DNA from: Arenivirga flava
GTDB lineage: Bacteria; Actinomycetota; Actinomycetes; Actinomycetales; Microbacteriaceae
Length of the DNA: 64,000 nucleotides
NCBI RefSeq assembly: GCF_030161575.1
Contig: NZ_BSUL01000001.1
Location: 1-64,000, forward strand
Reading direction: 5' to 3'
Below, in pieces: positions 41,399-51,963 of this stretch. The notes beneath the pieces were generated by a model. The model ran no database searches, had not been told where the DNA came from, and saw only the letters and a list, made by a program, of their open reading frames with translations. Made by a program: the position numbers and the translations under genes. Numbering within the stretch: position 1 is the first letter of the stretch; the number at the start of each line of letters is the position of its first letter.

Positions 41399-41485
41399 AT
41401 GCGAACCCTTCGAACGCGAGCCGCGCTCGCCGCGGCCGCGGTGCACCGCCGCGCCGCCGACGATCGTGGCGACGTGCCCGGCTGG
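41399..41485 (+). pseudogene. small pilin-like tad gene, 5' fragment (interrupted by element)
   Basis: ATG 41399 behind GAGAGGA. Reads MRTLRTRAALAAAAVHRRAA then DDRGDVPGW (29 codons), then enters the mobile element and stops after SEIG at 41498-41500. The missing rest is at 51853-51963. Joined at GGCTGG the gene encodes a 65-residue peptide with a basic/Ala leader, DRGDVPGW, one hydrophobic span (VLITLMTAGLVLIIWALAEP) and a short tail. By position between tadC and tadE and by shape it is the Flp pilin-like or minor pilin gene of the operon. Confidence 0.85.
41480..41485. other. left attachment-site core (GGCTGG)
   Basis: Last bases shared between the interrupted pilin-like gene and the element. 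Left context GACGTGCCC-GGCTGG-TCTGAAATT. Serine recombinases use a very short core, consistent with a 6-base repeat. Confidence 0.7.
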
Positions 41486-41575
41486 TCTGAAATTGGCTAG
41501 CACATATGACAGGCAGGTGTATGGAGGCTCGGGCGCAGGCTAGGCTTCACGGGTGGTTGGGGGCGAACGATAGCG

Positions 41576-42112
41576 ATGTGGAATCCGGCGGATTATTTCG
41601 GCGCGGGACAACTCTTCGTCGCGATTTTGGGGTTCGGGATTGCCATATGGCAATTGGTGCGCACAGCGGACGCGACGGTCGAGTCCACCCGCCTCCTCGG
41701 TGCGAGGCTGCTCGCTAACGACTTGCTCGTACTGCTTCCGGAGCTTGAGGCTCTAGAAGACGCTGTTCACTCTGCAGTGAAATCCGAGGACGCGGATAAA
41801 GTTGGCATCGCGCTGGCAAAGTACGCGCGTCGGGCCCAGAGGGTTCACGGACACCTCACGTCAAGCCCAGTGTATGAAGGCGTTGTTCTCGTCGGCCTGA
41901 TCAATGAGAGCGTTGAAGCCTGCCGTGACGCGAAGCAGAAGCTTTACGATAAGCCCAAAGTCAACATCATCCCAACCGTTCGCGCCGCAAGGCAAAGCAT
42001 CGATAAAGTAGTTCTAGAAGCAGCAAGTTTCTCAGCTACTCTTCAGAAGGGGACCGAAAGTGGCAACAACAGAAGAAAACGTTGGTTCGGTTCTCGCCGC
42101 TCTGATCAGTGA
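41576..42112 (+). CDS. element-encoded hypothetical protein with N-terminal membrane segment
   Basis: 178 residues; ATG 41576. N-terminal hydrophobic segment (FGAGQLFVAILGFGIAIWQLV, about 9-29), then a helical, charged domain to the end with a basic tail RRKRWFGSRRSDQ. Probably a single-pass membrane protein with a cytoplasmic coiled-coil-like domain. Lower GC than host genes. Its 3' end overlaps the next gene by 53 bases. No family recognised. Confidence 0.6.
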   Translation: MWNPADYFGAGQLFVAILGFGIAIWQLVRTADATVESTRLLGARLLANDLLVLLPELEALEDAVHSAVKSEDADKVGIALAKYARRAQRVHGHLTSSPVYEGVVLVGLINESVEACRDAKQKLYDKPKVNIIPTVRAARQSIDKVVLEAASFSATLQKGTESGNNRRKRWFGSRRSDQ

Positions 42113-42425
42113 GACTCGCTCAGGGGAGATGCACTGGGAGGACTCCATCGAGCCAACAGAGTACACCGCTCGAACAGGAAAATTTGGTTACTACATCAAA
42201 TCTCGTGATGAAGACGGTCTCTCGCCCTTCAGGTTCCAAATCTTCTCGGAAGATACACCTTCGCGACCGATCTTAGAGATTGTCTCGGCAGACTTCCTCG
42301 AGAACCTGAATGACTCCTTCCGGGAACTCTACAACCTGGCGAAGGGAGCGGCGTCCGGGCTGTCCTCAAAACTCACAGCAGAAGTGCTCGAGGCCATCGA
42401 AAGGCATCGCGCCAACCCGTCATAA
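42060..42425 (+). CDS. element-encoded hypothetical protein
   Basis: 121 residues from GTG 42060, with AAGGGG 9 bases upstream. Acidic soluble protein (MATTEENVGSVLAALISET ... EWLENLNDSF-like helical part, ending ERHRANPS). No recognised domain. Starts within the previous gene, so the two are probably made together. Might be a partner or immunity-type protein; no evidence beyond the overlap. Confidence 0.55.
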   Translation: MATTEENVGSVLAALISETRSGEMHWEDSIEPTEYTARTGKFGYYIKSRDEDGLSPFRFQIFSEDTPSRPILEIVSADFLENLNDSFRELYNLAKGAASGLSSKLTAEVLEAIERHRANPS

Positions 42426-42603
42426 GTAAGGCGTATTTACTTCAAAACACGCCTGCCCTCGAGCGTCGCCACAGGTTGGTGGAGCTCGGGGGCTTCTCTA
42501 TTTGGTACTTGCCAGGTACTCTTCTCAAGCCGGGACCATCCTGGTGGGCCAATCTTCTGTACGGTGGAATCCCAAATTTTGGGACGGCATGTGTAGTTAG
42601 CAC

Positions 42604-43458
42604 ATGGGCTCTTGCAGTACGCGCGGAGCATTCGTGTCTATCTCGGAATCTAGGGCTAACTGGGCCGCATCCTTCTATGGCCAGCCTGTTCATTATCAAG
42701 ACAGAACTCGTTATACCCCTAAGCCTGTACTGCAGCTAACCAGGGAGCTTCAGAACTTCCTATTCGAGCAAAGTACACTCCAGGGACTCAAGCGGTGTAG
42801 TGACAGGTTTCCCTGCAGATGCGCCCTGTGCCCCTTCTGCGCTAGACGCCTTGCGGCCAAGGCGCGACGGGGCATCCACGGCAGTGATGTAGCTAACGCT
42901 CCCGCGTTGCTGCTTACCCTCACTACAGCGAGCTCGGCGAGCCTTGCTGAAGCATGGGATAACCAATCGCGAGTACGTGCAAGATTCCAGCGCAAATCAT
43001 GGCTGTCGAGTCGAACTCAAGGCTGGACGCGAAATTCAGAAATTACGATGACGGACGCCGGATGGCACGTGCACGACCACTTTGTGGTGATGCCCGATGC
43101 AGCCAACCACGCCTTCCTCGAGGCGGCTATCCGGCACTGGCTCGCCGCTGCGGAGCATGAGGGCGTGGGAGCCTCGCAGAGCGGCCAGGACGCCCGGAGC
43201 TACAGGGATGCCCGGACAGCGGTGGCTTATGCGTCCAAGGGCTGGTTCAAGCCCGCCAAGGGCGCATCGCAGTCCCCGGGTGACATCCTTGCCGCCTTCA
43301 TAGCCGGAGAGGCCGATGCGGCTGAGCGATGGCGTGAGTTGGAGGATCTTCTTATACAACGGAGGGTAGTTACCCGGGGTGCAGGTGGATGCCTCAAGAA
43401 GAACGCGCTGCTCAGAATTGCGAATGTGGAGTCTAGTGAGACCGTTACGAGTTCGTGA
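42604..43458 (+). CDS. rolling-circle replication initiator (Rep_1-like, HUH family)
   Basis: 284 residues (start ATG 42604 tentative). Cys-rich zinc-finger-like segment (CRCALCPFCARRLAAKARRG) near 75-90, HUH metal motif WHVHDHFVVM (His155, His157, His159 region), and the catalytic Tyr motif AYASKGW with Tyr209 and Lys212 (YxxK of the Rep_1 class); Tyr200 is an alternative. Nicks a double-strand origin and starts rolling-circle replication. In an integrated element this suggests an excised, replicating circular form, as in actinobacterial integrative elements that use Rep proteins. The origin is probably in the AT-rich gap 42426-42603 or within the gene; not located. Confidence 0.75.
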   Translation: MGSCSTRGAFVSISESRANWAASFYGQPVHYQDRTRYTPKPVLQLTRELQNFLFEQSTLQGLKRCSDRFPCRCALCPFCARRLAAKARRGIHGSDVANAPALLLTLTTASSASLAEAWDNQSRVRARFQRKSWLSSRTQGWTRNSEITMTDAGWHVHDHFVVMPDAANHAFLEAAIRHWLAAAEHEGVGASQSGQDARSYRDARTAVAYASKGWFKPAKGASQSPGDILAAFIAGEADAAERWRELEDLLIQRRVVTRGAGGCLKKNALLRIANVESSETVTSS

Positions 43459-43566
43459 CCGGATGGCGCCGATATAGCGACTTTTCCGGAATCCGAAAGC
43501 CGATAGTACTAGTAGAGGTAGTAGTAGAGAATAAGTCGTTCTACTCGGAATCGAATGGAGTTCGAA

Positions 43567-44118
43567 ATGGCCAGGCCATGCGCTCTCTGCGGGCTCGCAA
43601 ACCGCGACAACGTAGACGCCCGACTCGTTGCGGGTGCTCGCGTTGTGGACATCGCGGCTGAAGCCCGAGTCAGTGAGTCTGCCGTCCGCCGCCATGTCCG
43701 GAACCACCTCTCGCTGCCGCTCTTCCGCGACGGACTCGATGTAGACGATTTGTCGCCTTCTGACCTCATCGAAAAGCTCAGCGAGAACCTCCGTGACCTT
43801 GAGCGGGTTCGGAGTGCCGCATTGCGCACTGGTGCGAGCGGGACGGTTATCCGGGCCGCGTCTACTTCCTCAGACATCATCGCCACCCTCATGAACAGGC
43901 TTGGCATCGATGACCTGAGTATTGCGGGAGAGCTGGCGTACGCCGAGCAGCTAGCCCGAGCAGTCGCCACCGCCACGCGGTCCAGTCCGGCCCTCGCCGC
44001 CCTACTCGCGCCCGAACTCCGCACGGTCGGACTCGAAGCCGAGGCCGCCTCTCTAGATGCCTACGTCGCCCACCTAGGCGCGCTAACTACCCTACGCAAG
44101 GAGCCCTCTCATGACTGA
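43567..44118 (+). CDS. element-encoded zinc-ribbon/HTH protein
   Basis: 183 residues from ATG 43567, chosen for GGAG 6 bases upstream (an ATG at 43555 is less likely). MARPCALCGLANRDNVDARL is a small Cys motif, followed by a helix-turn-helix (VVDIAAEARVSESAVRRHVRNH), then a long helical region. Resembles phage small DNA-binding or terminase-small-like proteins but without diagnostic motifs. Overlaps the next gene by 8 bases. The upstream 100 bases hold repeated TAGTAG motifs. Confidence 0.6.
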   Translation: MARPCALCGLANRDNVDARLVAGARVVDIAAEARVSESAVRRHVRNHLSLPLFRDGLDVDDLSPSDLIEKLSENLRDLERVRSAALRTGASGTVIRAASTSSDIIATLMNRLGIDDLSIAGELAYAEQLARAVATATRSSPALAALLAPELRTVGLEAEAASLDAYVAHLGALTTLRKEPSHD

Positions 44119-44512
44119 TAAGAAGCATCCTCTAGAAGGTGCGGAGATTCACTTCCTCCGCTCCATCACCGTCTATTTGGGTCAGCGCCAAAGCCGGGTG
44201 TTCGACCGCGGCGAGACCCTGACCCTCACCGCCGAGATTCTGGAATTCTCTCGGGACCGCCTCGGACAGTCTTGGTTCGAAACCGAGCTGGCGAAGGGCT
44301 CCGCGTCGCTAAAGATCGCTCGCGGCGCATGGCCGGAGGGGGTGCCGACTTGGATCGCTGGGGACGCAGCTTGGGCTACAGCGCGCGAGCAGGCGCGGCT
44401 GGAGGCATGGGCGCATCCCACGCTTGAAGAGCAGCTTGCTGCGCGAGCCGAAGTCAACAGGGTGTACGGCCCCGCGGTCACCTCCCGCACGCTAGGGCAG
44501 GTCGTGCGATGA
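44111..44512 (+). CDS. element-encoded hypothetical protein
   Basis: 133 residues from ATG 44111. N-terminal beta-rich part (EIHFLRSITVYLGQRQSRVF), Trp-rich middle (SWFETELAKGSA, GVPTWIAGDAAW) and helical C-terminus. Similar in size and in the N-terminal strand pattern to small phage/element accessory proteins. GTGA-like 4-base overlap with the next gene (ATGA at 44509). No known domain. Confidence 0.55.
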   Translation: MTDKKHPLEGAEIHFLRSITVYLGQRQSRVFDRGETLTLTAEILEFSRDRLGQSWFETELAKGSASLKIARGAWPEGVPTWIAGDAAWATAREQARLEAWAHPTLEEQLAARAEVNRVYGPAVTSRTLGQVVR

Positions 44513-44880
44513 GTGCCCCCATGGCCCCTATGGCGTTTCGGCAGCGCATCGCCGACGTGTTGCGGTCCTTCGGGGCTCCGGCACACGTCCGTGCCCGTTC
44601 AGACCGTCAACTCTCCGAGCTACTCGCCGAAGCTGAGCAGAACGCCGTGCGTCCGGACATCTTGGGACTGAAACGGTGGAGCATCAACGCTCGTGCCGAC
44701 CTTGCAGTGTCCGGCGTTATCGCTTCCGCCGCGGAGGTTACGCGCGACGGGGCAGACTTCTCCGCCGTTGTAGTGCGTCGCCACGTCGCTGCGGGTGGCC
44801 GTGGCGGACTCGTCGCGGTCGTGCCTATTGCTGTCCTTGCCGATTTGATCGCGGAGAGTGAGGGTCAGCAGGGTATCTAA
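44509..44880 (+). CDS. element-encoded hypothetical protein
   Basis: 123 residues from ATG 44509 (overlaps the previous stop). N-terminal helix (FRQRIADVLRSFGAPA), a basic middle and two beta strands (DFSAVVVRRHVAAGGRGGLVAVVPIAVL). No family recognised. Last gene of a co-directional run that began with the Rep gene, closed by a T-run terminator. Confidence 0.5.
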   Translation: MSAPMAPMAFRQRIADVLRSFGAPAHVRARSDRQLSELLAEAEQNAVRPDILGLKRWSINARADLAVSGVIASAAEVTRDGADFSAVVVRRHVAAGGRGGLVAVVPIAVLADLIAESEGQQGI

Positions 44881-44979
44881 TCTTGCGGGCCGCTTCCGTC
44901 CCCTACATGCGGCGGCCCGCGAGCGCGGATTTTCTTCGGGTCCGCGGTGGTGGCTGGGTTCTCCTTCCCTCAGCCCCCG

Positions 44980-45012
44980 GGGCCGGGCCTCTGCTGGGGC
45001 CCGGCCCTTTTT
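44980..45012 (+). terminator. rho-independent terminator with T-run
   Basis: GGGCCGGGC / GCCCGGCCC stem with a 10-base loop followed by TTTTT. The clearest intrinsic terminator in the window; ends the left-arm operon of the element. Confidence 0.85.
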
Positions 45013-45082
45013 CGTTGCACTGATGCCGAGATTTCCGAATCTCGGGCTCGTAACGCGACCGCAGTCGCTGCATGACTTGAGC

Positions 45083-45108
45083 CACACGATAATGTCAGTT
45101 ATCGTGTG
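45083..45108. promoter_or_regulatory. dif-like palindrome upstream of tyrosine recombinase
   Basis: Perfect CACACGATAA-TGTCAG-TTATCGTGTG: 10-base arms and a 6-base centre, ending 3 bases before the recombinase ATG. Arm/centre geometry and the inner GATAA...TTAT match XerCD dif-type crossover sites. It could be this recombinase's recombination site, its operator, or both. Confidence 0.6.
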
Positions 45109-45111
45109 TTT

Positions 45112-46050
45112 ATGAGCGCGAGCGTCCAGGCCACCGACATCACGAGCAACACAACACGCCACGGGGCTCTCGCCGGAGCTTGGCTCGCATCGCTGACCAG
45201 CGACAACACCCGCCGCGCGTACCGCCGTGACCTGACGGCATTTCTCGAGTTCCTGGACGGTCACGGGGTCGACTTGTTCGCAGCTGAGCGCCCTCACGTT
45301 GACCTCTACCGGCTCAGCATCGAAGAGCAGTCCGCTGCCACGGTGGCCCGCAAGCTCTCTGCGCTGAGCGCGTTTTACCGCTATGCGCAGGATGAGGGGG
45401 CGGCGACGTCCAACCCCGTCGTTCGCGTCAAGCGCCCCAAGATCGATGCAGACCACTCTGAGACGCAGGGCCTCACCCGTGCACAGGCAATGGCGCTGCT
45501 CGAAGCTGCGAAAGAAGATTCCGCACGCTCGCACGCGCTCGTGGCGCTGCTCCTCTTCACCGGCGCTCGCGTCTCTGAGGCCCTAGGAGCGCGCGTGAGC
45601 GACCTCAAGCACAGTGGGGGCCACAGGGTACTTAGCGTGACCCGGAAGGGCGGTAAGCGGGCTCTGCTCGTGCTTCCGGCACAGGTGCTCGACGCGCTCG
45701 GCGGCTACCTGGGAACAGGGACGGCTCATGGCACTGAGGTCACCACCGCGGATGCGGCGAGCGCCGCCGATGCCCTGCTCTTCACTACCCGCACCGGGAA
45801 GTCGTGGGCGCCCTCTGAAGCCTTCCGCACGGTACAGCGGCTCGCTAAGGGCGCGGGTATTGAAGGGGCGCTCAGCCCGCACAGCCTCCGCCACACGCAC
45901 GCCACGCTGGCGCTCGACGCCGGTATGCCTCTTGCCGAACTCCAGGATTCGCTAGGTCACGCCGACCCCCGAACCACGCAGCGGTACAACCGTGCCCGGA
46001 ACCGGCTGGAGCGGTCGAGCGCTCACACCCTGGCGGCGGTGTTGTCCTGA
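45112..46050 (+). CDS. tyrosine recombinase (XerC/D-like)
   Basis: 312 residues from ATG 45112 (GTG 45106 overlaps the palindrome). N-terminal SAM-like core-binding domain (WLASLTSDNTRRAYRRDL ... ATVARKLSALSAFYRYA) and catalytic domain with Arg in FTGARVSEAL, Lys in VTRKGGKRALL, HSLRHTHAT (His-x-x-Arg), His in LGHADPRTTQRY and the nucleophile Tyr in QRYNRAR. All six catalytic residues are present. In an element that already has a serine integrase its likely job is dimer resolution or a second integration route. Full length for the family. Confidence 0.9.
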   Translation: MSASVQATDITSNTTRHGALAGAWLASLTSDNTRRAYRRDLTAFLEFLDGHGVDLFAAERPHVDLYRLSIEEQSAATVARKLSALSAFYRYAQDEGAATSNPVVRVKRPKIDADHSETQGLTRAQAMALLEAAKEDSARSHALVALLLFTGARVSEALGARVSDLKHSGGHRVLSVTRKGGKRALLVLPAQVLDALGGYLGTGTAHGTEVTTADAASAADALLFTTRTGKSWAPSEAFRTVQRLAKGAGIEGALSPHSLRHTHATLALDAGMPLAELQDSLGHADPRTTQRYNRARNRLERSSAHTLAAVLS

Positions 46051-46160
46051 GGTCGCACGCCTGTCGTACGTATCTTCACGCCGGAACAGCCGTACGCCAG
46101 TCGGGCGTGCATTGGGGTGTACATCCCATATACACGTGGTGCTAGAGTCAGACCATTGCT

Positions 46161-46197
46161 CCCCGCCCTCCCTAACGGGACTGGCGGGGCCTTTTTC
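46161..46197 (+). terminator. rho-independent terminator with T-run
   Basis: CCCCGCC / GGCGGGG stem, 15-base loop, then CCTTTTT. It lies between the tyrosine recombinase and NYN genes, only 13 bases before the NYN start, so it may also act as an attenuator. Confidence 0.7.
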
Positions 46198-46210
46198 TTT
46201 GGGGGACGTT

Positions 46211-46801
46211 TTGAGCACCGGCTGGCTCCTGATCGACTATCAGAATCTCCATTTCAGCGCTGGAGACGTGTTCGAGCCCCACGGGACGCCGCCCGAGGAC
46301 TACCTTGTGCACCCCGACCGTTTCGCCGCGCAAGTCGAAGTCGAGTGGCAAAACAAGTTCGCTCAGCCTCTTGAGATTCGCCGTGTAGATGTGTTTCGGG
46401 GACTCCCTGATCCTCGCAAAGAGGGTGCGCTCAACGGTCATGTGAGCAGACAGAACCGCCTATGGACTAGTGGTCGAGTCAACGTCTACACCCGTGCTCT
46501 TCGCTATCCGCGGGACTGGCCGAACTCTCGCGCCGAGGAAAAGGGCATCGACGTGCTGCTTGCGCTGTCCTTCTTCCGCGCGGTGCTCGTCAAGAAATCG
46601 GACTATGTAATTCTCGCGTCGCGAGACACGGACCTCGTGCCTGCGCTTGAGATGGCCGAGACTGCTGTCCCTGGACGCGCTGCAATCGCGACATGGAGTG
46701 GTAGCTCCGTTCTCCGCCCGAAGACGGCGAACCAAATTCCGACCGTGCAACTCGGGCGTGCTGCGTACGAGAAAACTTTGGCCGAGCACGACGGGAGCTA
46801 G
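46211..46801 (+). CDS. NYN/PIN-like domain ribonuclease
   Basis: 196 residues from TTG 46211, with GGGGGAC just upstream. NYN fold: LLIDYQNLHFSAGDVF (first Asp and Asn), EEKGIDVLLALSFFRA (Lys-Gly-Ile-Asp), VILASRDTDLVPALEMA (Ser-x-D-x-D) acidic cluster of a metal-dependent RNase, LabA/limkain type. NYN proteins degrade RNA and occur in several phage-defence and toxin systems. Here it opens the right half of the element, tail to tail with the minus-strand genes. A role in defence is inference only. Confidence 0.8.
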   Translation: MSTGWLLIDYQNLHFSAGDVFEPHGTPPEDYLVHPDRFAAQVEVEWQNKFAQPLEIRRVDVFRGLPDPRKEGALNGHVSRQNRLWTSGRVNVYTRALRYPRDWPNSRAEEKGIDVLLALSFFRAVLVKKSDYVILASRDTDLVPALEMAETAVPGRAAIATWSGSSVLRPKTANQIPTVQLGRAAYEKTLAEHDGS

Positions 46802-47079
46802 CCCCATCCGAAGTGATGGCGGAAACGTTTGGGATCAGCCCGGAACTCAAGAACCTTGCGCACCCGCTCCTCCCGATCTGCGCTGAGTTCGAGCGGAATC
46901 ATCCGCCCGTCGTCCGGATGCACCCCATACGCCATCCAAAAGATCGTGTGTCCGCGCCCGATCCGCCGCCGCTCGATCTTGCCGAGCATGTCGCCGTTCT
47001 CGTTATGCAGCGTCCACGCCTCGCTTCCGGGTACCTTGCGTTCTTCCACAAGCTCGAAGGTAAAGGGCGCCTGAGACAT
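46798..47079 (-). CDS. element-encoded small hypothetical protein
   Basis: 93 residues from ATG 47079. Beta-rich sequence (FTFELVEERKVPGSEAWTL, GKIERRRIGRGHTIFWMAY) ending in PKRFRHHFGWG. Overlaps the NYN gene end by 4 bases in the opposite direction. No recognised domain; could be an accessory or immunity-type protein. Confidence 0.5.
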   Translation of the reverse strand: MSQAPFTFELVEERKVPGSEAWTLHNENGDMLGKIERRRIGRGHTIFWMAYGVHPDDGRMIPLELSADREERVRKVLEFRADPKRFRHHFGWG

Positions 47080-47095
47080 TGAACCTTTCGAGCCC

Positions 47096-47557
47096 TCAGG
47101 CAGTGGATGGCCGCTCGCTCAGCGCCCGAATCCGAGCGACTGTGCGGTCCATTGCGATCTGGACTTCGATGGCGTCTTTCTTCCACTCCGGCCAGTCGGG
47201 GTCCTCAAGAAACTTCTGAAACCCCTCCTCGTCATGACCTACCTGCCGATCCCACTGCTCAGGCACGAGGTCTCGGCCAAGGAGTCCAACCAGGGTCAAT
47301 GCCTCCGCGCCCATGACCTTCCGCTCCTGAGGATCACTTGATCCACCACGGTTTCGGTTCTGGAGAAGGCGGATCATCATTTCCAGGTCCAGCATGAGTT
47401 TGGCTTGCTCGATACTGGCACGCCGATCCTCCGCGGCGATGCGACGGGAGTTCACTCGATCTCGCCACGACACGATTAGAGCAACGACTGAAGCGCCTAC
47501 GGCAACCACGACGGCAGCCGTCTGAATCCATAGAGCTAGGGCCTCTGGGTAATCCAC
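47096..47557 (-). CDS. element-encoded single-span membrane protein
   Basis: 153 residues from GTG 47557, chosen for the strong GAGGAGG a few bases upstream. One hydrophobic segment near the N-terminus (ALWIQTAAVVVAVGASVVALIV), then basic and helical cytoplasmic sequence (SWRDRVNSRRIAAEDRRASIEQAK) typical of a short coiled coil, then a charged C-terminus. Its layout (membrane span plus charged helix) is like that of the plus-strand protein at 41576, but no common family is evident. Unknown function. Confidence 0.6.
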   Translation of the reverse strand: MDYPEALALWIQTAAVVVAVGASVVALIVSWRDRVNSRRIAAEDRRASIEQAKLMLDLEMMIRLLQNRNRGGSSDPQERKVMGAEALTLVGLLGRDLVPEQWDRQVGHDEEGFQKFLEDPDWPEWKKDAIEVQIAMDRTVARIRALSERPSTA

Positions 47558-47656
47558 GGGTTTCCTCCTCGTTGTGCACGATGCTGGTTCCATTCAGACA
47601 CACTCAATGGCGGATGCCGTTTTGCCTTGACCGATGCGTACCCCCTCGACACGGGT

Positions 47657-48969
47657 CTACAGAATTGGATCGTCCGACTGCTTCCAATCCGGTGGCCAGC
47701 GCTTGCGGATGAACCCTGCTGACCACTCCTCGCCCTCTCCGGGCCACGAGGTTGGAGGTGCGTCGCCTTGGAAGACGAACTTGCTCCTATGCTCCGAACC
47801 CCCGATGCCTAGCACCCCACCGCCAGGTGTGATTCGCCAGGCGCGCCATACCTTGAACGCGTCAGCGGTCTCGATGTGCACACCGTGATTGGCGGGCAGC
47901 CCGTGAGCCGCGGCATCGATTAGAACATCGGGCACATCGTCCCAATATTGTGAGCCGCGTCTTTCGTACTGTCCGTTTTGCAGGACCCACAACCACTCAA
48001 GCTGTTCTTTCGTTTCGCGAAACTCACGACGATCAAGGTGCCTGCCGTCGGCGTCTCGCTCGTTCCGCCCGACGTTGCGTTCCAGTGCCGCGAGGCGATC
48101 CGCTTCGGCTTGAGCGGTCTTCCGAATGTCCGCCCGAACTTCTCTCATCCCGAGGAGCGACCCCCGCAAAGTACCGTCACGGGCGAACTCATCATGACGA
48201 GGGCGATATCTCTGCAAGATGCTCAGCCTGCCCTGAGAACCCAGGGCGAGACCAGTCACGTTGCGACGTGTGAGCTTCGTCCCTCGGATGCTGATGCGGG
48301 TGGTCACCTCTTGGAGGACTACGGAATATCCGAACCAGTAAAAGAAAGGAAACAGCGACAGCGGTAGCCAGAATCCGTAGAACAGGGACTGCATCACATC
48401 TGCCCAGTCCGGTGGCTGCGTAACGAAGCTCACCGACGTCCAAATGAATAGAGATGCCCCGATGAGGGCGAGTCCTTTGGTTGCCCAGTTGCTACCGCTG
48501 TCCTTGCCTTGCCGGGCCACTGCCACCGACGCAGCGACCAGGACAAGCACGATGACTTGAAGGAGAAGCTCGCCTAGGAGCGGAAGGGGGCTGTGTCTAG
48601 ATAGAACGTGAGTAGGACGGACAACCCGAACGTCTCTTTCATGAGACGAGAGGCGAGGTGTCCTCCTGAGTCAGCTTTAAACGAGCGGTATGCAAGGGGA
48701 AACACCACAGTTGTGGTGAGGATGATGGAGTCCTTGAGCAGGTTCAAATCCCACAGCCCGATGCTCCTCGCAAGGCCGGTGGAGATGACTGCTGCACCTG
48801 CGACGACCATGAAGACCTTCAGCATGGTGATGTTGAAGACAGCGCGGAGCAGTTCGCTGAGGGATGGGCGAATCTGCCGCCGCACGTTGGGGATCGCGAC
48901 AAAGATCAAGCCTGTAGCAACGATCACGATCAGAGAGGCAAGCTCTCGTGTAGTAAGCACATCCAGCAT
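47657..48969 (-). pseudogene. element-encoded polytopic membrane protein with cytoplasmic domain, frameshifted
   Basis: Two frames that belong together. From ATG 48969 (GAGGGA upstream): four or so spans (TRELASLIVIVATGLIFVAI, FMVVAGAAVISTGLA, IILTTTVVFPLAYRSF) to TFYLDTAP. A run of five G at 48586-48590 then breaks the frame. Adding one base continues as LPLLGELLLQVIVLVLVAAS through further spans and a cytoplasmic domain of about 190 residues to the stop at 47657, 437 residues in all. The C-terminal part has a charged helical region and a Trp-rich end (WLWVLQNGQYERRG, FKVWRAWR). Not recognised. If the break is real it would yield two smaller membrane proteins. Confidence 0.6.
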
Positions 48970-49194
48970 GTTGACTCCCTCGGTCAACAGCGTACGGTTC
49001 TCCACCGTCACCCATCTGCCCTCCCTACAGCACGAGACGGTTGCCGCGTGAGGTACCTGACGGTCGGAGCCGCACGCCATCGGCGAACGGCGGGCAGTGT
49101 GAGATGACGCCTTCGCTTAGCAGAGTGCCGCTGGGCTGAGAGGGAAGGAAGATCGCTAGGGTACGAGCGGCATTCGATGATCCTGGGGGGACTA

Positions 49195-50031
49195 ATGCAC
49201 GTCGTGTTCGTTGACGATTCGAAGCAAAAGGGCCGCAGGGAGGCGATGGGGAATCTCATCACCCTCGGCGCAGTCGCGTTCGCTGAGGACAAAGTGCGTC
49301 CCTTCGCGGAAGCGTTCAACGCCCGCCTCGATGAGTTCGATGTGCCGCGTGAAGTCGAACTGAAGTGGTCTCCTGACTCGAAGACCGACTGGTTCCGCAA
49401 GAACAAAAAGACCAGCATTATCGCTCCGCTCCGCGAGGCCATCCTTGCGGACGCTCTCGCACACGGTTGCAGGGTGGTTGCAGCTGTCTGGGATGACGAG
49501 CTCGCCGGACTAGGGATGAGAAATCAGACGGCGGAGCAATGGGTGATTCGGTTCCTCTTCGAACGCGTCGAGATGATGCTTCAAAATGAGGGGCACCGTG
49601 GGATTCTGGTTTTTGACAAGCCAGGCGGCGATCACCGTGCAGAGGATGCTTGGTTAGGTGAGACAGCGGACTTGACCTCGATAGGCACCGAATTCGTGAA
49701 GTCGGAAGCCATCGTGATACCCGTCTTGACTGCACCGTCTCACCGGCATCCACATCTCCAACTGGCCGATCTTGTGACGGGCGTAGTGACCGCAGCCCTC
49801 GCAGGATCGAAGTATGGAATGGCCCTCGCGAACATGGTCACTCCCATGTTTCACCGGAATTACTACGGAGGCATTGGAGGCGCGGGCCTCAAGCTCTACC
49901 CGGACTCGCTACTCAACCTGCTGCACTGGGTGTTCGAGGAAGAACGTTTCGTGCGTAACGGCATGGGCTTCGCCTTACCTGCGCCAGCGCTCGGGCGCTT
50001 CGGCGAGAACGACGGCCTTGCACCATCCTGA
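49195..50031 (+). CDS. DUF3800 domain protein
   Basis: 278 residues from ATG 49195 (GGGGGGAC 3 bases upstream). Opens with the DUF3800 motif MHVVFVDDSKQKG (paired Asp), has LEWSPDSK-like KWSPDSKTDWF, and ends with HPHLQLADLVTGVVTAAL, the second family motif. The fold is predicted RNase H-like, with the conserved acidic residues suggesting a nuclease. Family members turn up in mobile elements and defence islands. Transcribed away from the membrane genes and toward the serine recombinase. Confidence 0.78.
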   Translation: MHVVFVDDSKQKGRREAMGNLITLGAVAFAEDKVRPFAEAFNARLDEFDVPREVELKWSPDSKTDWFRKNKKTSIIAPLREAILADALAHGCRVVAAVWDDELAGLGMRNQTAEQWVIRFLFERVEMMLQNEGHRGILVFDKPGGDHRAEDAWLGETADLTSIGTEFVKSEAIVIPVLTAPSHRHPHLQLADLVTGVVTAALAGSKYGMALANMVTPMFHRNYYGGIGGAGLKLYPDSLLNLLHWVFEEERFVRNGMGFALPAPALGRFGENDGLAPS

Positions 50032-50175
50032 CCTGCACGACACTGGTGCCACATCTCTTGATAACGGCCTCGAGCCCGGCTGGGCGTCAATCATTTCGCG
50101 TAGCCATGACCGGTGTCGGGGCTGTGAGCGCCACGCCGCCGAGATACACCGGGGTGCAGCAGGCTGATCCGAAAG

Positions 50176-51828
50176 TCACGAGATGGCTGCCCAGCCCTCG
50201 GGCTCGGGTTCGAATGAAACCGGATTGTCGAAGCCCATATAGTCCCCGCCAGGCAACTGCCCCAAACTCAGCCGACTGATCCCACGTCCACCAACCTTCA
50301 CGGATGGGCGGTAGCGGGCGCGGATCATGGCCCGCTGACGGTCGATGGGCAGGCTGCCCCAAGCCTCACGGAGGCGAGCCTCCCAGGCCTCGCGCTCCTC
50401 GGTGTCTTTGAACGGAGCATCGTCCGAACGCCGCCACTCATCCAGGAACCCGGAGAGCGCACCACCATCGGCAGCGCGGGAGAGGAGGCGATCTCGCTCC
50501 GCTTCGAGCTCTTCTCGTTCGCTGTCGAGGGCTGCCAGATTCGATTTGCCCTGAGCGTGGATCGACTTGAGGGCAGGGTCGAGCAACTGTGCCCCTACGT
50601 GCTTCACGTTCTCTTGGTTCTCAATGAGTCGTTGAGCCAGGTCGCTCAGTTTGGCGCTTACGTCGTCGCCAGGAGCCTTGATCCTGTCGTGAAAGAGGTC
50701 CGCCAGGAGCGTAGCCGTGAAGAAATCATCGACGGCACCTTGGGCTATCGATGCATGGCGCTGGCTCTTGTCGTAGAGGGCCTTTGAGCATTTGTAGTTC
50801 TTGAAGACGTAGCGCTTGCCCGCGGGGACGTTGCCGCGCTCCTTATTGCGCTGGGAATAGCTCGTGGTGCCGTGCATGACGGCTCCGCACTCACAGCGGA
50901 GGACGCCGCCGAGCAGGGTCACGGCACGCTCAGACACCGGTGTCCCGGCCTTCACGCGGCTTTTCAGGGCCTCATGCTGTTCCGGCTCGATGATGCGCTC
51001 GATCTTGCTCTCTGCGAGCTGCTGACCCTTGTACACGAGCAGGCCAGCATTCCGAGGGCGAAGGAGCAGCTGACGGACCGTCGTCGCGGTCCAGACCGTT
51101 GACACCGGGCGCTTCTCACCATCCCTGCTGACTCGCTCCCGGTAGTCCCGGCCCGCCTCGACATCTGCCTCTGAAGGTCGCATCGCGTCCGTCTTGACGC
51201 CAGCAGCGGTCCAGTCCTTTGCGATTCTCAGCATGGAGCGCGTCCCGCTGAGGTAGTCGGCGACGGCGGTCCGAATGTATGCCGCCTCCTCCTCACGGAC
51301 CGTGATCCGGTCGGGCTCGAATCCGAACGGACGGGTGCCCCACAAGGGCATCCCCGCGGCTCGCTCCCGCTCGTAGCGTCGTCGCTGACGTGCATCGCGG
51401 ATGCGGCCCTCACGACGCCCTGACGTGAAGATCGCTACGGCTGTCTCCTCTCCATTCGGTGTGGAAACGTCCAGCGGGGTCCGGTCGCCCTCGAAGTGCC
51501 AGAGAACACCAGCGTCGGCGGAGGTCGAAATGAACTTCAAGCCGTCTTGATACGTCCTCGCCAGTCGCTCGCCTTCAACAGCAAGGAGCACATCGAACTC
51601 CTTGGCCTCCATAGCCTTCAGGAGAGCTTGTGCGCCGGGGCGCTTCTCCAACGTGGTGTCGTCGATGCTCTTGCCTGACGCCGCGATGCCGTCGTCCTGG
51701 AACACCGGCCCCACGGTGTAGCCGCACTCGCCAGCGAACAGCTTCAGGATCGCAATCTGATCTGCGACCTTTGGCGTTCGCTTGTCCTTATTGCTGATCC
51801 GGGCGTATATCGCAGCGCGCAGCTTCAT
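50176..51828 (-). CDS. large serine recombinase (integrase of the element)
   Basis: 550 residues from ATG 51828, 19 bases from the right att core. N-terminal resolvase domain with nucleophile Ser12 in AAIYARISNKDKR, then VLLAVEGERLART and the long linking helix (RIRDARQRRRYERERAAGM), recombinase domain (GTRPFGFEPDRI ... NAGLLVYKGQQL), a zinc ribbon (LGGVLRCECGAVMHG ... YKCSKALY), and a C-terminal coiled coil rich in Glu/Arg. Size and order fit phage-type serine integrases. Position next to the right att core marks it as the integrase that put the element into the pilin-like gene. Confidence 0.93.
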   Translation of the reverse strand: MKLRAAIYARISNKDKRTPKVADQIAILKLFAGECGYTVGPVFQDDGIAASGKSIDDTTLEKRPGAQALLKAMEAKEFDVLLAVEGERLARTYQDGLKFISTSADAGVLWHFEGDRTPLDVSTPNGEETAVAIFTSGRREGRIRDARQRRRYERERAAGMPLWGTRPFGFEPDRITVREEEAAYIRTAVADYLSGTRSMLRIAKDWTAAGVKTDAMRPSEADVEAGRDYRERVSRDGEKRPVSTVWTATTVRQLLLRPRNAGLLVYKGQQLAESKIERIIEPEQHEALKSRVKAGTPVSERAVTLLGGVLRCECGAVMHGTTSYSQRNKERGNVPAGKRYVFKNYKCSKALYDKSQRHASIAQGAVDDFFTATLLADLFHDRIKAPGDDVSAKLSDLAQRLIENQENVKHVGAQLLDPALKSIHAQGKSNLAALDSEREELEAERDRLLSRAADGGALSGFLDEWRRSDDAPFKDTEEREAWEARLREAWGSLPIDRQRAMIRARYRPSVKVGGRGISRLSLGQLPGGDYMGFDNPVSFEPEPEGWAAIS

Positions 51829-51846
51829 ATGTTGAACTCTAGTACT

Positions 51847-51852
51847 GGCTGG
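51847..51852. other. right attachment-site core (GGCTGG)
   Basis: Context TCTAGTACT-GGCTGG-GTGCTGATC. The host reading frame resumes in phase immediately after it. See the left core at 41480-41485. Confidence 0.7.
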
Positions 51853-51963
51853 GTGCTGATCACGCTCATGACCGCCGGGCTGGTCCTCATCATCTGGGCG
51901 CTCGCCGAGCCTGCGCTCAGCGGGGTCTTCGACGCGGCCATCGCCCGCGTCATGGGGTACTGA
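51853..51963 (+). pseudogene. small pilin-like tad gene, 3' fragment
   Basis: Codons continue the interrupted gene: VLITLMTAGLVLIIWALAEP, then ALSGVFDAAIARVMGY and TGA at 51961-51963. It has no start codon of its own in the right place. Fused to the fragment at 41399 it gives 65 residues. Confidence 0.85.

Follow-up and report, generated by a model that had tools for sequence, protein, structure and literature searches.

In the 64,000-nucleotide stretch of Arenivirga flava DNA analysed here (the window), a palindromic site (45083..45108, + strand) and the adjoining gene for an Xer-like tyrosine recombinase (45112..46050, + strand) are best read as a self-contained, Xer-like plasmid-dimer-resolution module, in which the palindrome would be the crossover site and its occupancy would repress the gene's own leaderless promoter. 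We hold this reading with good, though not full, confidence. The proposed crossover (resolution) site, assigned from its sequence and its conservation upstream of homologues, consists of a left arm CACACGATAA (45083-45092), a centre TGTCAG (45093-45098) and a right arm TTATCGTGTG (45099-45108). The arms pair at 10/10 positions around the 6-base centre, and the recombinase ATG lies at 45112, 3 bases past the end of the palindrome. An earlier description of this DNA (hereafter the sequence-only reading) had reported just such a dif-like perfect palindrome before the ATG, and the sequence is exactly as claimed there. With two 10-11-bp half-sites, a 6-bp centre and ATAA/TTAT borders, the palindrome has the make-up of a dif-like Xer site.

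The recombinase is a protein of 312 aa (translation of 45112-46047), with a SAM-like N-terminal domain and a catalytic domain (Pfam PF00589 and PF02899) in which the catalytic R-K-H-R-H-Y residues are retained. The R, K, H-x-x-R, H and Y residues, together with the SAM-like N-terminal domain, place it in the Xer family of tyrosine recombinases. XerD 1a0p is the nearest solved structure (E 1.2e-23, residues 21-296), all six catalytic residues are present in that alignment, and XerD, XerA and XerH are the main solved relatives. Against the NCBIfam equivalog models, the recombinase stays far below the cut-offs for XerD (TIGR02225, 155.9 bits vs 329.6), XerC (TIGR02224, 147.1 bits vs 335.2) and XerS (NF003462, 77.3 vs 267).

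A bare 10-6-10 palindrome is unremarkable, because about 0.57 perfect ones are expected per 64 kb by chance (Markov-1 simulations), and on that count the palindrome could be an accident or an unrelated hairpin. Palindromes with an ATAA/TTAT core appeared in 0 of 60 simulations, and the window holds no second match to the palindrome arms, even with 3 mismatches (0.00 expected). It is conservation with homologous genes that raises the palindrome above chance, and as this conservation goes far beyond shuffled regions, we give an accidental origin practically no weight.

Relatives of the recombinase were drawn from plasmids, from phages and from genomes at the family, order and class level. Of 53 homologue genes, 23 have an ATAA-N6-TTAT palindrome in the ~500 bp upstream, compared with a mean of 0.03 and a maximum of 1 in shuffled regions. 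The sequence-only reading had named lack of conservation with the gene as a refuting outcome; this search bears out the conservation, and the palindrome withstands that check. A further five homologues have the site farther upstream than ~500 bp. Other centre lengths (3-5, 7-10) gave 0 sites in the 53 loci, except two for a 9-bp centre. The site accompanies 8/9 homologues of at least 50% identity vs 3/11 below 37%, and presence of the predicted site tracks relatedness of the recombinase. Upstream sites are found on plasmids of Kocuria, Rothia, Pseudonocardia, Streptomyces, Micromonospora and Pseudomonas and also in several genomes, and across relatives the site is linked to its own recombinase gene, as in a resolution module. 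The arms vary by lineage and are palindromic throughout (CACACGATAA; ACAGTCATAA; GGTACATAA; CTGGTGATAA; TACAGAATAA; CCCAACACAA), as would be expected of recombinase specificity. Among 347 genomes of the order, exact CACGATAA-N6-TTATCRTG occurs only beside four homologues of the recombinase.

Some homologues have no adjacent site; where their identity is ~40% or lower, these may be XerC/XerD of the chromosome. For the Arthrobacter phage integrases (36%), the single example examined (L032) had no such site. A protein search of the genome contigs returned one distant match and that of the viral contigs none. The arm pattern matches 69 stretches of viral contigs, none of them near a recombinase of the same family (tblastn), and these matches are probably mostly due to chance. 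Further, two Pseudomonas plasmids (L055, L056) carry recombinases of 36-37% identity with perfect or near-perfect upstream ATAA-AATACG-TTAT palindromes, in which the centre is identical and the arms differ; putative recombinase-site modules of a similar kind occur, then, beyond actinobacteria. In an Arthrobacter agilis plasmid (L025), the 59% identical recombinase is truncated by 70 residues at its N-terminus and no site lies upstream; loss of the gene start and loss of the site seem to have gone together.

The GATAA and TTAT motifs around the centre had been likened to actinobacterial dif, correctly so, as dif sites of the family read CGATAA-N6-TTATGTC. The family chromosomal dif is CGATAA-N6-TTATGTCAG, and the best candidate dif of the host, CGATAATCCTTATTATGTCGGA at G000:C1:733408, is separate from the palindrome. 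By eye, the left arms of the palindrome and of chromosomal dif are alike at 8/10 bases and have the inner CGATAA in common. This common stretch would suit a dif mimic used by host XerC/XerD, either as a second integration route (IMEX-like) or for host-driven resolution. However, the palindrome, unlike dif, has two arms of one type (10/10 symmetric), and its right arm is not dif-like. The 11-bp arms of the host candidate dif match at 4/11 positions across the dyad (by eye), likewise those of the predicted Frankia dif, CACGCCGATAATGCACATTATGTCAAGT (PMC3025954); module sites match at between 7 and 11 positions of 11, in most cases 9 or 10. Such near-perfect arm symmetry points to one enzyme serving the two halves. 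In addition, the centres TGTCAG (palindrome) and TCCTTA (candidate chromosomal dif) are alike at 1/6 positions, the first base, which disfavours exchange with host dif; the sites of relatives have non-dif-like arms but retain their own recombinase; and the element occupies an apparent serine-integrase attachment site. A dif mimic is therefore quite improbable, and the second integration route into host dif that the sequence-only reading had envisaged is not supported. Asymmetric arms (CCGATAA and TTATGTC) and occurrence once per chromosome characterize host chromosomal dif, and the palindrome does not fit this description. Nor does the element qualify as an IMEX, as it is integrated within a tad cluster, next to the gene for a serine integrase, and its centre has 1 of 6 bases in common with that of dif.

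The integrated mobile element that carries the site (41480..51852, no strand assigned) is bounded by two GGCTGG core copies (41480-41485, 51847-51852). It interrupts a small, conserved gene for a membrane protein (MRTLRTR...DERGDVPGWVLITLMTAGLVLIIW...) in a tad pilus cluster, the gene parts lying at 41399-41470 and 51853-51960. A congeneric genome (G072) has this gene whole, reading DERGDVPGWVLITLM across the junction. The split gene is apparently the attachment site of the element's large serine integrase (50176..51828, - strand; Pfam Resolvase and Recombinase; phrog_95 integrase), which probably inserted the element. Given the element's ends and the whole gene in G072, integration is most simply explained by the serine integrase, and the tyrosine recombinase is probably not the element's integrase.

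The element also encodes a replication protein of the Rep_1 family (rolling-circle type; 42604..43458, + strand; PF01446, E 2e-8), a match that agrees with a presumed rolling-circle element. Two conserved element proteins are encoded at 43555..44118 (+ strand), with a helix-turn-helix-like stretch by eye, and at 44111..44512 (+ strand). Rep and the helix-turn-helix-like protein have homologues in a related element (G668), in which the gene order Rep, HTH-like protein, orfD, recombinase is kept and a serine integrase is also present; homologues of the second conserved protein lie beside the recombinase in G668 and G339. The rep operon ends in an intrinsic terminator (44979..45008, + strand) upstream of the recombinase gene, which is therefore probably transcribed from a promoter of its own in the roughly 100 bp that follow. 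After the terminator and before the recombination site, at 45026-45045, comes a perfect 8-bp stem whose loop has 4 bases (CCGAGATT-TCCG-AATCTCGG); it has no T tract.

The host assembly holds three copies of the palindrome. Three separate elements were considered and rejected, since BLAST traced the copies to one locus at overlapping redundant contig ends (G000 C1:1-64535, C1:3116120-3180654 and C2, 60 kb). The window sequence is thus present three times at ~99.9% identity, and copy counts for anything in the window can be inflated. The redundant copies bear an insertion that is absent from the window copy (window 46796-46802; L005 10916-11990; L007 9179-9739); seven bases, AGCTAGC, are duplicated there, at the stop codon of an NYN-like gene. 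The insert in L005 is ~1.05 kb, with a 339-aa frame resembling an IS481-type transposase, and that of the C2 copy is shorter, ~0.56 kb, at the same stop codon. The difference between copies suggests a mixed population, or an assembly joining two alleles.

The position of the site bears on how the recombinase gene is expressed. In ten loci (the window, L033, L034, L035, L020, L031, L037, L062, L064 and L070), exactly 3 nt separate the 26-bp site from an ATG or GTG. These fused loci belong to several families and are scattered over the recombinase tree; a Streptomyces plasmid is among them, as are two loci of another family. In the window, the right arm contains a proposed -10 box, TATCGT (TANNNT; 45100..45105, + strand), which is followed by 6 nt and the ATG. 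The series of TANNNT in the right arm, 6 nt and start codon is found in 10/10 fused loci, compared with TANNNT in 3/11 unfused sites (Fisher p 0.001, a value that overstates independence because fused and unfused loci are kin by descent; part of TANNNT also comes free from the core TTAT). TANNNT is the main mapped promoter motif in Mycobacterium tuberculosis, where there is no conserved -35 and many transcripts are leaderless (PMC3898074). Its spacing to the start codon in the fused loci would fit the -10 box of a leaderless actinobacterial promoter, in which TANNNT stands about 7 nt ahead of a transcript start at the start codon. A sigma-70 hexamer scan returned no promoter by its criteria, and by eye no conserved -35 motif was found in the fused loci.

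A recombinase sitting on the site would probably cover the -10 box and shut off its own gene. The sequence-only reading had proposed that recombination at the site controls expression of the recombinase. The site does overlap the control region of the gene; strand exchange as the switch is the unlikely part, because identical sites recombine into the same promoter and expression should not change. Occupancy, that is autorepression, is the likelier form of control. Another proposal would have the site used for DNA inversion or cassette exchange, switching the recombinase gene or its neighbours on or off. A crossover site touching a promoter could indeed swap upstream sequences, but there is a single site in the window and one per monomer in five plasmids, and recombination of identical sites leaves the promoter unchanged. 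We consider such a switch highly improbable.

The overlap of site and presumed promoter, at fixed spacing in ten loci, could also mean that the palindrome is an operator only, bound by a dimeric repressor, with recombination elsewhere or absent. The repressor would be the recombinase itself or the HTH protein of the element, which does encode a conserved protein with a helix-turn-helix-like stretch. Among the loci compared, however, a homologue of that protein is found only in G668, whereas the site is far more widespread. The sites on the Kocuria, Rothia, Pseudonocardia, Micromonospora and Pseudomonas plasmids lie ~30 to 450 bp upstream, yet are palindromic with the ATAA-N6-TTAT core. Further, the centre is invariant in length at 6 bp and asymmetric, as in Xer sites. 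These features make a role as operator alone unlikely, and a crossover site that also represses by occupancy remains our preferred reading.

Five complete plasmids have one site per monomer, which is the arrangement expected for dimer resolution. This arrangement and the module architecture make dimer resolution, one of the roles raised in the sequence-only reading, the most likely role of the site. From the architecture and the plasmid distribution, resolution of dimers of a replicating or tandem form would be the most economical role, although the element here is integrated. In the mechanism that we propose, the element, once excised and replicating, would form head-to-tail dimers, as might a tandem array of integrated copies. 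Four recombinase protomers would bind both halves of two site copies, and cuts 6 bp apart at the ATAA/TTAT borders, followed by strand exchange, would yield monomers. TATCGT in the right half-site would serve as the -10 box of a leaderless promoter, with transcription beginning at or beside the ATG, and recombinase on the site would block its own transcription and so keep its level low. We infer binding, cleavage, dimer resolution, the leaderless start and autorepression from sequence comparison. More tentatively, the site, -10 box and start codon may be locked in a 32-base unit of a widespread actinobacterial plasmid-resolution module, in which occupancy reports and limits expression. The two sites of a dimer might then titrate the recombinase and briefly raise its expression only when a dimer is present, a form of self-sensing. 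As a separate observation, a Streptomyces plasmid of 26,964 bases labelled linear (NZ_CP108534.1, L166) is an exact head-to-tail dimer of 2 x 13,482 bases, possibly through an artefact of assembly.

The predicted pairs of recombinase and site, with their many distinct arms, would make it possible to test directly how half-sites are recognised by Xer-like enzymes, and such pairs could supply orthogonal recombination tools. If a recombination core also serves as a leaderless promoter, point changes could separate autoregulation from recombination. The element also suggests a division of labour in mobile elements, with a serine integrase for integration and an Xer-like enzyme for monomer maintenance.

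The module resembles chromosomal dif/XerCD of actinobacteria in its ATAA-N6-TTAT core and in the homologous recombinases (about 36-40% identity), whereas actinobacterial dif needs two recombinases, is distant from their genes and has arms ~4/11 alike across the dyad. In XerS/difSL of streptococci and XerH/difH of epsilon-proteobacteria, a single recombinase gene is linked to its dif site (PMC5357621, PMC2731167). Similarly, the present module places a lone Xer-like recombinase beside its own dif-like site. These two systems differ in that they resolve chromosomes, the difSL centre is 11 bp with imperfect arms, and no promoter inside the site is reported in the text consulted; the present module is found on plasmids and mobile elements, always with a 6-bp centre and near-perfect arm symmetry, and its protein similarity to them is weak. 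In archaeal XerA/dif, one recombinase works on an 11-6-11 dif-like site independently of FtsK (PMC5357621). The present module shares with XerA the use of one recombinase on a dif-like site and a similar domain organisation, but the XerA system is chromosomal. We know of no overlap between the xerA promoter and archaeal dif.

In TnpI/irs of Tn5401 and Tn4430 and in Tn3 res/TnpR, the resolvase promoters lie inside the element's own resolution site and are autoregulated by binding (PMC7157771). These transposon systems serve cointegrate resolution and have accessory repeats, and Tn3 res and the site of the Tn5401 tyrosine resolvase are longer, whereas the present module has a bare 26-bp core, with a proposed -10 box inside the half-site and a proposed leaderless start. 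Cre/loxP of P1 and ResD/rfsF of F are plasmid-borne tyrosine recombinases that resolve dimers at their own sites; in loxP the arms are 13 bp long and the spacer 8 bp, and the site is not adjacent to the cre start. The likeness to these lies in a plasmid-encoded tyrosine recombinase with its own site. No earlier description of the site-promoter-start arrangement was found in the open-access papers searched. XerS/difSL-type modules and the autoregulation of Tn3 res and Tn5401 irs are known already, and the present arrangement is a variant of these.
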